A stretch of DNA of 64,000 bases, taken from the NCBI GenBank assembly GCA_949286705.1, contig CASEDF010000004.1, positions 124,001 through 188,000 on the forward strand, in the 5' to 3' direction. A model generated the notes under the pieces. The model searched no databases and was not told the origin of the DNA. It worked only from the letters and a program-made list of their open reading frames with translations. This stretch comes from an uncultured bacterium. Its GTDB lineage: Bacteria > Cyanobacteriota > Vampirovibrionia > Gastranaerophilales > Gastranaerophilaceae. A program made the position numbers and the translations under genes. Of the stretch, positions 2,085-24,754 are shown piece after piece (the first letter of the stretch is position 1; every line of letters begins with the position of its first letter).

Positions 2085-3035
2085 TTATTTTGTCAAACAT
2101 TGCCAATAAGTTTTGTTATTATCCCATGGGCATATGTTATTTAAAGCGTACCAGCTGCAGCCTATTCCGTTGCCCTTCATACTGGAATTCAAATTACAGG
2201 GATAACCGTAGCGATTCTGATTTATCGGAGAATTGGAAAAATCAATTTCTTCAAGCTCTTCATCGGTATATTCACGGGTTTGCCTGATACCCGCAAGGGA
2301 ATCATTTTCCTTATCCACCCGGAACAAAAATATGTCCCAGCCCAATTTGTTAGGACCCTTAGCCCCATTAATATCCACACCGAAATTTATATAAAACTCA
2401 TTAATATTCACGTTCATATAAGTTCCGTCCGGCATAATATCGGTATAAAATAAGGTATAGCTCATTCCTCCGAGATCAGCCGAAGACAGCCCGCTATGCC
2501 TGTTATTAAACGATGAAATATCCGCTCTTTGAAGATCATAACCGCTAACTCCAGACTTTTCAGGCATCATAACCTTATAAAAAGCCTGCATACAATTGTT
2601 CTCATTAATATATGCTGACCCGTTATGCACAGTGCAGTACTGCCCCAAAGAACCTGTTTCCAAATCAGCTTTTGCACGAAGAATAATTTGAGATGCAACG
2701 GCGTAAGTTTTTTTAAATTGAGCTTCCAAAACTTTTTTTTGATAATTACTTACCAATGTCGGAATAGTAAGCGCTGCAACAATTCCGATTATCCCGAGGG
2801 TTATCAGAACTTCAGCCAAAGTAAACGCGACACGACGAATGTTGTCTGACATGTCTACGTACGTAGCACACTCGGCTAACGTGAAGGCGGCTTTTTTAAC
2901 GTGAGTGAAGTGAGTTTTTTTGTCATCCTGAACATAACTATGTTGGGCTACATTACTATTACGAATGTTTCTTCTTACTGCCTTAGTATCAGTCGCCCCC
3001 CCCCCAGCAATTTCAGACTTTTTATAAACCATCAT
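2085..3035 (-). CDS. Type IV pilin-like/pseudopilin precursor with G10 leader tract (frame open)
   Basis: Precursor of a secreted or fibre-forming pseudopilin. The class III signal (VAFTLAEVLITLGIIGIVAALTIPTL) has the usual Glu5 and hydrophobic helix but Ala instead of Gly before the cleaved Phe. The body is a soluble domain with several cysteines and a C-terminal WALNNICPW region, typical of this lineage's prepilins. The leader is unusually long, at 73 residues before the cleavage site. It contains ten consecutive G (coding strand), read as GGGA, and a second FTLAE about 24 residues upstream of the real one. The tandem ATGs at 3035 and 3032 are preceded by AAGGAG. One G more or fewer would close the frame at once. 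Confidence 0.85.
   Translation of the reverse strand: MMVYKKSEIAGGGATDTKAVRRNIRNSNVAQHSYVQDDKKTHFTHVKKAAFTLAECATYVDMSDNIRRVAFTLAEVLITLGIIGIVAALTIPTLVSNYQKKVLEAQFKKTYAVASQIILRAKADLETGSLGQYCTVHNGSAYINENNCMQAFYKVMMPEKSGVSGYDLQRADISSFNNRHSGLSSADLGGMSYTLFYTDIMPDGTYMNVNINEFYINFGVDINGAKGPNKLGWDIFLFRVDKENDSLAGIRQTREYTDEELEEIDFSNSPINQNRYGYPCNLNSSMKGNGIGCSWYALNNICPWDNNKTYWQCLTK
2835..2969 (-). repeat. 126-bp in-frame insertion bounded by 9-bp direct repeats
   Basis: The 9-mer acgaatgtt occurs at 2835-2843 and 2961-2969, exactly 126 bp (42 codons) apart, inside the prepilin leader. The segment between encodes an extra AAFTLAE motif and the 12-bp palindrome CTACGTACGTAG. Compared with the leader at 24.6 kb, where NIR is followed directly by RVAFTLAE, this segment looks inserted. 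Confidence 0.6.
2996..3005 (-). repeat. G10 homopolymer in prepilin leader (phase-variation candidate, open state)
   Basis: Ten C on the plus strand (G10 in the coding strand) lie 10 codons after the start codon. In the present state the frame passes through it. With nine G the reading ends at a TAA 13 codons after the start of the tract, and with eleven G it meets TGA within five codons. Such G/C runs are classic slipped-strand contingency sites. Confidence 0.7.
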
Positions 3036-3120
3036 TTATCTCCTTTTTATAAAAAATAACATATATTTTTTTATTTTGCAATAACTTTACAAGACACCGA
3101 ACAAAGTGTAAAATATTAAT

Positions 3121-7995: not shown

Positions 7996-8736
7996 TTACC
8001 AGTCGTAATCGTCGCTTATTTTCCAGCCGTCATATTTGATTAATGCTGCGCATGATCTGCGCCATCCGCTATTGTTGCAATCTTCCAAAAGCGCTGTTCT
8101 TTCGTCCATATTACCGGCACTTGCATTATAAAATTCTATATTCCCTGAGTCAGGAGTGATCTTAACAAGAAAATAATCCTTACCTGCCATATTAGGTTTT
8201 GCTGTTCCGTTTATATCAAGCCAAAACAATATAGATCCGCCGGCCATGCAACCATTTTCATCGCACTTGGATGAATTATACACGGCAGATATAGACGAAC
8301 CATCCTGCAAAATTACATTATATTTATAAGTTGCCATATTCATGTCATTAGACGGACTGTTGTGCGCTTCTCCGAAACACCCTTTATCTGATGATATTCC
8401 ACAGTTTTTAGCAACTTTTAAGTGTGGCAAAAAGTAATTTTCCATGAAATCTGCTACATTTTTGTGTGCAGTTTCAGAATCCATATCAAAATTACCATTA
8501 ATATTATTTAATAATATATTGTCACCGCCGTCGGCTTTTGCAAACAAATAAGCCTGATTTAATATTGAATACATTTTTTGCAATTTAGTAACGGTCTGTT
8601 TTTTCTCATACTTTACAATTAATGTCGGAATTGTCATTGCAGCTACTATACCGATTATGCCGAGGGTGATTAAGATTTCTGCAAGAGTAAATGCGGCTTT
8701 TTGGGAAGATACTAAGTTACTAAGACAGTAAGGCAC
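7996..8736 (-). CDS. Type IV pilin-like/pseudopilin precursor, leader frame interrupted
   Basis: The body is an intact pseudopilin: AAFTLAEILITLGIIGIVAAMTIPTL at the N-terminus, then a soluble cysteine-containing domain. The longest in-frame start is a GTG at 8736 with no ribosome-binding site. A much better start (ATG at 8894-8892 after aaaggag) lies upstream, but it reads through a G9 tract into TAA at 8849-8847 (15-residue peptide). With G10 the frame matches the prepilin but meets a single TAA further on, and with G11 or G8 it meets TAG. This copy is therefore either silent at present, read from the GTG, or decaying. Confidence 0.75.
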   Translation of the reverse strand: MPYCLSNLVSSQKAAFTLAEILITLGIIGIVAAMTIPTLIVKYEKKQTVTKLQKMYSILNQAYLFAKADGGDNILLNNINGNFDMDSETAHKNVADFMENYFLPHLKVAKNCGISSDKGCFGEAHNSPSNDMNMATYKYNVILQDGSSISAVYNSSKCDENGCMAGGSILFWLDINGTAKPNMAGKDYFLVKITPDSGNIEFYNASAGNMDERTALLEDCNNSGWRRSCAALIKYDGWKISDDYDW

Positions 8737-8804: not shown

Positions 8805-8867
8805 TCTTTACACAACCAATACCGCCAAAACCCTTTTCCTGGCTACTTAGGAGAGTCGCCCCCCCCC
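8805..8867 (-). repeat. Shared prepilin leader repeat, copy 1
   Basis: This 63-nt block matches 24665-24727 without gaps, with 5 visible mismatches. It begins with a 38-nt identical stretch and ends in the G9/C9 tract. It encodes the leader region between start codon and prepilin signal. Confidence 0.75.
8859..8867 (-). repeat. G9 homopolymer in prepilin leader (second copy)
   Basis: Nine C on the plus strand (G9 in coding sense) lie nine codons after the ribosome-binding-site-preceded ATG at 8894. The flanks are nearly the same as those of the G9 tract at 24719-24727. Confidence 0.65.
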
Positions 8868-23861: not shown

Positions 23862-24754
23862 TCACTTTTCATGCAAATATTTGTAACTGCATCCCGCACC
23901 GGGAGCTTTAAATATGTAATCAACAGTTCCGTTTACATTTACGCTGCCTATACTTTCGTCACAGCCTGCATAACCCTCTTTTTCTGTTCTTGTTCCTTCA
24001 TCTCCTGACGGCTTGAAATATAAATCTTCTATGTATTGTATTCTGCTATTTATTAATGCGCTTGTCATACTTATCACATATACATCTTTACCGATAATAT
24101 TCGGTCCGCCATTAAAATTGTTTACATCTACCAGTATTGTTGAACCACTATGTGAGCCTCCAAAATATATTGAGGCTCCGTTTTTTAATAATGCTGCTTT
24201 ATTACTAAAATCATATGCATTTAATTTGCCGCCGGACAATGTTTTATATCTTGAATACATATTTGCAGTCCCTGACCATTTGTATTTTATCTGGCTGTCT
24301 TTATAATGCGAATAATTATCGCAAAGATTTTTATCATAACTTGTCAATGCAGCACAAGTATCCACTACTTGAAGATGGGACAACATTGCATCTATAAATT
24401 CTTTTGAAGGATTATAATTTTCAGGAGTCGTGACCACCATCCGCGGATTTTCCGCAACAGTCATTTTGAATGCATTATTTAATATTGCATAACACTCTTT
24501 CCACTTTGCATGAAAATGGGCTTCCTGTATCTTGCTTACAAGCGTCGGTATTGTCATTGCTGCCACTATACCGATGATGCCAAGGGTGATCAGAACTTCA
24601 GCCAAAGTAAACGCGACACGACGAATGTTTCTTCTTATTGCCTTAGTATCATAGTATCTTAGTGTCTTTACACAACCAATACCGCCAAAACCCTTTTCCT
24701 GGTTACCTGGAGGAGTCGCCCCCCCCCGACAATATCTTTTTTCATATTTTTCAT
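23862..24754 (-). CDS. Type IV pilin-like/pseudopilin precursor, frame OFF by one G
   Basis: The body (from 24611) begins AFTLAEVLITLGIIGIVAAMTIPTLV and continues as a cysteine-containing pseudopilin ending at 23862. The proper start is ATG at 24754-24752 after GAAGGAG. From it the present G9 tract leads to TAA at 24670-24668 (28-residue peptide). Adding one G gives an unbroken leader of about 50 residues (GGGATPPGNQEKG and so on) joining straight to RVAFTLAE. Ordinary gene callers would start inside the signal at TTG 24605. I read it as a phase-OFF gene; a sequencing error in G9 is the alternative. Confidence 0.8.
24665..24727 (-). repeat. Shared prepilin leader repeat, copy 2
   Basis: Gap-free partner of 8805-8867 (63 nt, 5 visible mismatches). 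The neighbouring 24593-24633 segment is also almost identical to 2805-2843 of the first prepilin. Confidence 0.75.
24719..24727 (-). repeat. G9 homopolymer switching the 23.9-kb prepilin
   Basis: Nine C on the plus strand lie nine codons after the ATG at 24754. G10 restores the full frame; G9 gives an early stop. Confidence 0.75.

Follow-up and report, generated by a model that had tools for sequence, protein, structure and literature searches.

In Neisseria, translation of pilC is phase-variable through a poly-G run whose length sets the reading frame (Jonsson et al. 1991, cited in PMC5320596). PilC is a protein associated with type IV pili, encoded in two copies (pilC1 and pilC2), and is not itself a pilin. 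The wider Neisseria phasome holds many repeat-switched genes, with at most 54 putative loci of many functions per gonococcal genome and a modal poly-G length of 9, and pilin diversity at pilE/pilS arises by recombination between related copies (PMC5953494). Known type IV prepilins carry a class III signal peptide, a leader of 6-26 amino acids that ends in Gly except in archaea (PMC4471445). Partial pilus gene sets have been reported for Gastranaerophilales, as have pilA, pilB, pilC, pilT and pilD in one single-cell genome (PMC5877343). Here we describe a prepilin gene at positions 2085-3035 (minus strand) of a 64,000-nucleotide stretch of DNA, referred to as the window, from an uncultured bacterium of the Gastranaerophilaceae (assembly GCA_949286705.1, contig CASEDF010000004.1, positions 124,001 to 188,000), together with the poly-G tract in its leader, which recurs in a large family of prepilin genes and which we propose to be a phase switch.

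As in pilC, run length sets the frame in these genes and type IV pili are concerned. Unlike pilC, the genes are pilins themselves, they number dozens, and the tract lies in a leader expected to be taken off by prepilin peptidase. They share with the Neisseria phasome the multiplicity of repeat-containing genes and the modal G9, but the 55 tract-bearing sites belong to one gene family in one genome of an uncultured, cyanobacteria-related lineage. Recombination between related copies recalls pilE/pilS, whereas tract loci have a Shine-Dalgarno sequence and start of their own, and the leader rather than the mature domain is observed to be swapped. The hydrophobic FTLAE helix, the TIGR02532 match and a peptidase gene are those of type IV prepilins; the leaders, at 21-189 amino acids and with mostly Ala before the Phe of FTLAE, are not. 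Within the titles and abstracts of the open-access papers searched, a body that leaves most subscription journals outside its scope, no report of pilin phase variation in this lineage, or of slipped-strand events in Gastranaerophilales, was found; what links Melainabacteria to phase variation there concerns flagellins, by title and abstract.

Results

The initial annotation of this gene dealt with a 126-bp segment in its leader. It passed over a G10 tract elsewhere in that leader, and this tract proved to be the key feature. When the gene was compared with its orthologue in a related genome (G005), both were seen to have a run of G closely behind the start, G10 in the window and G9 in the relative. 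The second of the two ATG codons of the window gene lies 27 nucleotides ahead of the tract, which is the standard spacing of the family.

We examined the genome from which the window comes (G000; 1.85 Mb in 41 contigs; G and L numbers denote genomes and loci, respectively). TIGR02532, a model of the prepilin N-terminus, has 82 matches in it. G or C runs of at least 8 number 67, and 55 of them lie within 700 nucleotides upstream of a prepilin, where 2.1 were expected (P ~5e-71); on the sense strand 49 of these are poly-G and 6 are poly-C. About two thirds of the 82 prepilin motif sites bear a tract. Among 80 distinct FTLAE sites that were collected, a poly-G run of at least 7 was found at 50, with lengths of 9 (34 genes), 10 (11), 8 (2), 7 (2) and 11 (1). 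A start could be assigned in 47 of these genes, and in 34 of the 47 it lies exactly 27 nucleotides before the run. A homopolymer placed in this way, early in the coding sequence and behind a start signal, is a property of phase-variable genes, and the prevailing spacing tends to speak against silent copies of the pilE/pilS type. In L006, L048, L049, L060, L081 and L092 a C9 run coding for SGSDSRPPP stands in place of poly-G, and all six read one base short.

Twelve of the 67 runs were not matched to a prepilin by coordinates, and eight of them were inspected (the other four are C12:7161, C14:30581 and two on C16). At C8:53016 (L016) and C6:78011 (L187) the start, tract and leader are kept and the FTLAE helix is lost, and at C1:255410 the leader is cut by the contig end. 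No prepilin was seen at the other five inspected runs (C2:8834, C2:94823, C3:32660, C3:136167 and C6:46599).

Of the 50 poly-G genes, 43 have no stop between the run and FTLAE in the frame of that motif; for the two remaining frames this holds in none and one. With the poly-C genes added and leaders of at least 60 nucleotides considered, 43 of 51 are open against a dinucleotide-shuffle mean of 0.9. Run length thus sets the frame while genes that are out of frame (OFF) keep an intact open reading frame, as in phase variation; because the leaders of OFF genes stay open over many codons, these genes are probably expressed at times. By our rule for picking the start, on which these states depend, eight of the 50 poly-G genes are in frame (ON), the window gene with its G10 among them. 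One more G is needed in 31 genes with an open leader and in one with a closed leader, one G fewer in three and one, respectively; three genes are in frame but stopped, and three have no start by the rule. The OFF frames mostly end a few codons past the run. For the 50 tract genes of this genome with an open leader, leader length has a median of 99 amino acids (range 21-189). Of 59 tract genes, 54 have Ala in place of the usual Gly before the Phe, as do 14 of 21 others.

Alleles of different tract length occur on a near-identical background. In the region between -600 and +800 relative to FTLAE (some 1.4 kb), L242 (G005) and L243 (G011) are ~100% identical, and farther out their identity is 80-92%; L242 has G10 and is ON, L243 has G9 and is OFF, and their leaders otherwise agree at 322 of 323 positions. 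L245 and L246 are near-identical on both sides and unlike between the run and FTLAE. Among the genes read from the own genome, G005 and G011, nine pairs share at least 93% identity in the mature part; leader identity is 64% or less in six of these pairs, and run length differs in three. Three paralogues of G186 with near-identical start sequences carry G12, G9 and G11, and only the G11 gene is ON. The G005 orthologue of the window gene retains the position, the Shine-Dalgarno sequence and a tract (G9, OFF), and has a different leader. In the own genome, 16 pairs are at least 90% identical over leader end and helix, and head similarity is undetectable in eight of them, so that leaders and heads differ partly in their history. 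L325 and L332, both of G005, have mature parts that are 99.7% identical and different leaders.

The G005 and G011 loci were picked for long open frames, so that the share of open leaders among them (38 of 38 and 27 of 28, respectively) is too high; the own-genome counts alone are free of such selection. TIGR02532 has 81 matches in G005 and 66 in G011; 48 distinct sites were read from the former and 45 from the latter. Of the 83 rows in a further listing of tracts, some sites being doubled across two loci, 20 lack FTLAE within 1000 nucleotides, several of them at contig ends; the other 63 comprise 8 ON, 53 OFF and 2 in frame with a stop. The near-identity of L242/L243 and of L245/L246 extends over at least 1 kb between two species, inside more divergent flanks, and this sequence pattern suggests that pilin genes have recently passed from one species to another.

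The pattern of a start followed by poly-G was found in all 16 genomes of the genus, in none of which did the reversed pattern match more than twice per strand. In a sample of the order it occurs in 117 of 286 genomes, that is, in 114 of 264 within the family and in 3 of 22 outside it, the latter with 1 to 3 matches each. In a phylum sample of 386 genomes, by our count 216 of them outside the family, none outside exceeded 16 matches, and several of the higher scorers there had control matches of the same order. Beyond the loci that were read, matches were counted by pattern alone. In the 124 family genomes present in both the pattern scan and the prepilin scan, at least five pattern matches are found in 46 of the 53 whose prepilin sites exceed 50, in 6 of 14 intermediate ones and in 5 of the 57 that have under 30 (a prepilin count given as 54 means at least 54). 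In genus g20 (G134 and G233; L209, L210, L211 and L222) a short separate open reading frame with the G run lies upstream of a prepilin that has its own start; this arrangement is possibly another form of switch.

The window protein scores above the TIGR02532 cut-off (Table 1), as proteins with an N-terminal methylation and cleavage domain do, and reaches 17 bits with Pfam PF07963, under its cut-off of 21.2. Known pilins are matched through the N-terminal part only (best E 5.9e-06 in a profile search). FTLAEVLITLG is preceded by 70 amino acids ending in Ala, outside the short-leader type of 6-26 amino acids with a Gly end. A structure model built from 40 relatives (predicted local distance difference test, pLDDT, 87.3) has a helix at 3-55 and a strand-rich head with strands within 136-179. 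The best aligned solved chain was PAK pilin (1oqw_A), a weak match at Z 4.2 with a root-mean-square deviation of 3.6 over 118 aligned residues; at Z 3-4 pilins stand beside unrelated sugar phosphatases, and the head could not be assigned by fold search. Foldseek with the model gave no match at E<=0.001. The genome has one prepilin peptidase gene, a 327-amino-acid open reading frame with PF01478 at 34.7 bits (cut-off 26.5).

The initial annotation had described the 126 bp as an in-frame insertion that is bounded by 9-bp direct repeats, contains a palindrome and adds a second FTLAE to the leader. Its coordinates are right, and its observations were borne out in part. The two copies of ACGAATGTT are exact and 126 bp apart, the palindrome CTACGTACGTAG is present, and both FTLAE motifs lie in one open reading frame, translated as AAFTLAE-CATYVDMSDNIRRVA-FTLAEVLITLG. 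AAFTLAE occupies residues 49-55 and a hydrophilic stretch follows it; the hydrophobic helix adjoins the second motif only, which leaves the first as a vestige. Deletion of the segment gives the leader type of the gene at 24.6 kb, the short form NIRRVA-FTLAE. The syntenic G005 orthologue, with a mature part 75% identical, lacks the segment. The leader does hold extra in-frame sequence, but two leader modules meet where a discrete insertion between the 9-mers had been supposed.

When the DNA of 2780-3035 was searched against the own genome, 56 matches were obtained. The 5' part (module A) matches the leaders of L003 and L005, both of which enter the helix directly. The 3' part (module B), including both FTLAE motifs, matches L002, and like modules are found in L004 and L006; in L007 and L008 the CATHVDMSDNIRRVA part is present and the first FTLAE is missing. 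The short form is present in L019, L020 and the 24.6-kb gene. Exchange across the full 9-mer fits only the last of these, junction homology in L019 and L020 may be AACA only, and the change may have gone in either direction. Because the halves of the segment recur separately in other prepilin leaders, the 126 bp is the junction of two leader modules in a mosaic leader and no unit in itself. Many other leaders of this genome (e.g. L029, L042 and L083) contain repeats resembling repetitive extragenic palindromes, in both orientations (VILNLFQDL, ILKQVQDD etc.).

The palindrome was rejected as a site: five paralogues (L002, L004, L006, L007 and L008) read CTACGCACGTAG at that place, and among 241 loci only three overlapping loci of the window gene have CTACGTACGTAG, so that it is a private base change of module sequence common to the paralogues. 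The 9-mers were likewise rejected as the signature of a mobile element. ACGAATGTT has three copies in the window against 1.03 expected, a number reached in 7 of 100 shuffles, and the same 901 bp contain an exact 10-mer pair (D5) and a further exact 9-mer pair (D6); with equal or longer direct repeats so close by, the 9-mer pair alone carries little weight. The literal string AFTLAEVLITLGIIG was not found in the open-access papers searched. Positions of all these features, and of two further tract-bearing prepilins in the window, are collected in Table 1.

Table 1. Features of the window gene and of two other prepilin genes (window coordinates; ON and OFF denote frame states in the assembly)
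Feature	Position	Strand	Remarks
Prepilin gene, 316 amino acids	2085..3035	minus	ON; one open reading frame; TIGR02532 18.3 bits (cut-off 16.3)
Shine-Dalgarno sequence AAGGAG	3040..3045	minus	strong
Two neighbouring in-frame ATG starts (3035, 3032)	3030..3035	minus	
G10 homopolymer tract, proposed phase switch	2996..3005	minus	G10 sets ATG and FTLAE in the same frame
Leader module A (DTKAVRRNIRNSNVAQHSYVQDDKKTHFTHVKKAAFTLAE)	2872..2991	minus	common to L003 (98%) and L005 (96%)
Leader module B (KKTHFTHVKKAAFTLAECATYVDMSDNIRRVAFTLAE and helix start)	2780..2933	minus	95% to L002; similar in L004 and L006
9-bp repeat ACGAATGTT, copy one	2835..2843	n/a	
9-bp repeat ACGAATGTT, copy two	2961..2969	n/a	
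First FTLAE, vestigial	2871..2885	minus	hydrophilic CATYVDMSDN comes next
Palindrome CTACGTACGTAG	2855..2866	n/a	private one-base variant of CTACGCACGTAG
Second FTLAE, predicted prepilin peptidase site	2811..2825	minus	predicted cleavage before F71
Mature pilin (predicted): long N-terminal helix 3-55, then head with beta strands	2088..2825	minus	AlphaFold2 pLDDT 87.3, predicted template modelling score (pTM) 0.83
G9 tract of 24.6-kb prepilin	24719..24727	minus	OFF (lacks one G)
FTLAE of 24.6-kb prepilin	24597..24611	minus	short-form leader
G9 tract of 8.7-kb prepilin	8859..8867	minus	OFF; a stop interrupts the leader
FTLAE of 8.7-kb prepilin	8677..8691	minus	

Discussion

We propose that a large pilin repertoire undergoes poly-G phase variation in this lineage, with the cleaved leader acting as a tolerant, recombining switch region, and we put the probability of this interpretation at about 0.8. 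The poly-G (sometimes poly-C) run, about nine codons past a strong Shine-Dalgarno sequence and ATG and ahead of FTLAE, would slip. With the correct run length the ribosome would pass through the leader into the pilin and expression would be ON; with the run one G short, translation would stop soon past it and expression would be OFF. Prepilin peptidase would take off the leader together with the run, even where the leader has 70 amino acids or more. Since all that precedes FTLAE should be lost on cleavage, the sequence from the run up to that motif would be free to vary while its frame stays open, and slippage or recombination there would leave the pilin unaltered. Recombination with other leaders would replace a leader or patch it, and the 126-bp segment with its spare FTLAE would be one such patch. 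The purpose may be to vary a surface filament in the gut.

Several points weigh against this interpretation. The chief one, as regards a simple random switch, is the skew of the OFF genes, since unbiased drift would lead to similar numbers needing +1 and -1 G, not 31 and 3; the excess of genes that are one G short would be accounted for if G9 were a stable OFF state or if slippage on it were leaky. Seven of the 50 leaders are closed, two family members (L016 and L187) have decayed, and 27 of the 82 prepilin sites lack a run of at least 8 within 700 nucleotides upstream. Five family genomes whose prepilin sites number over 50 each (G070, G090, G113, G126 and G127) have no match to the start-plus-poly-G pattern; they may use other repeats as a switch or may not switch. 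The median leader is far longer than the 6-26 amino acids of known prepilins, and Ala prevails before the Phe where bacteria have Gly (PMC4471445). Finally, the sequences show the architecture, the frames, a difference in tract length between alleles and the replacement of leaders, whereas reversible, high-frequency switching within a clone is something we infer.

The same skew, the modal length of G9 and the stop that in most G9 genes comes very soon past the run in the frame of the start would also be expected if G9 were a programmed slip site, at which RNA polymerase slippage or -1 ribosomal frameshifting keeps pilin at a fixed low level and G9 is the functional form. We consider this unlikely. 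In-frame G10 alleles exist, including a near-identical G9/G10 pair, the OFF states of other genera need both +1 and -1 with runs that span 9 to 13, and the phase-variable tracts of Neisseria are also modal at G9 (PMC5953494). That the length differences are sequencing or assembly errors is highly improbable: every genome here is an assembly and homopolymers are error-prone, but the placement of the run, the 27-nucleotide spacing and the open frames do not depend on exact length, and the same skew is seen in three genomes.

Two other explanations concern the leader. If translation began inside the 126-bp segment, at the ATG of MSDNIRRVA-FTLAE, the leader would have an ordinary length of 9 amino acids and the upstream part would be untranslated or regulatory; L008 retains that ATG though its long frame is closed. 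This is improbable, as the internal ATG lacks the Shine-Dalgarno sequence that is so strong ahead of the tract, an ATG is missing at that place in most paralogues, and the long frame, open in most poly-G genes, points to translation. We likewise think it very improbable that the segment is a discrete in-frame insertion or a duplication mediated by the 9-bp repeats. The 9-mers are exact and the 24.6-kb gene resembles the product without the segment. However, such 9-mer pairs are at chance level, the halves of the segment are found apart in other leaders, the double-FTLAE module recurs in L002, L004 and L006, and entire leaders are replaced between loci. A search of the 16 genus genomes for the segment found no other place with all 126 bases; the best other matches cover 98 of them.

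In-frame palindromic insertions are known, such as the Rickettsia palindromic elements, in which repeat sequence is tolerated inside genes. The window gene is alike in tolerating repeat sequence in frame. Unlike those elements, its palindrome is a private point variant and its segment a leader-to-leader junction, with no hairpin element.

Poly-G phase variation of the pilins may form part of a surface diversity with two layers in the Candidatus Gastranaerophilales family, a proposition for which we see even odds. Poly-G or poly-C switches on most of the ~80 prepilin genes would give each cell its own pilin subset, while the ATG-poly-G sequence and the FTLAE helix would serve as homology arms that swap leaders and tract states among loci and species.

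The best-known cases of phase variation are those of pathogens, Neisseria among them. The organism here is related to cyanobacteria, is not photosynthetic and comes from the guts of animals. Dozens of its pilins are apparently switched singly, which predicts differences in surface filaments from cell to cell; immune or phage pressure, or bet-hedging in adhesion, thereby becomes testable in metagenome reads. A removed leader would be a safe place for a hypermutable tract, a possible reason for prepilin leaders of 100 amino acids or more. For annotation, pilins listed as 'truncated' or frameshifted in these genomes may be OFF alleles and not pseudogenes. If true, the two-layer system would be an exceptionally large contingency repertoire within a single pilin family, with a throw-away leader housing the switch.
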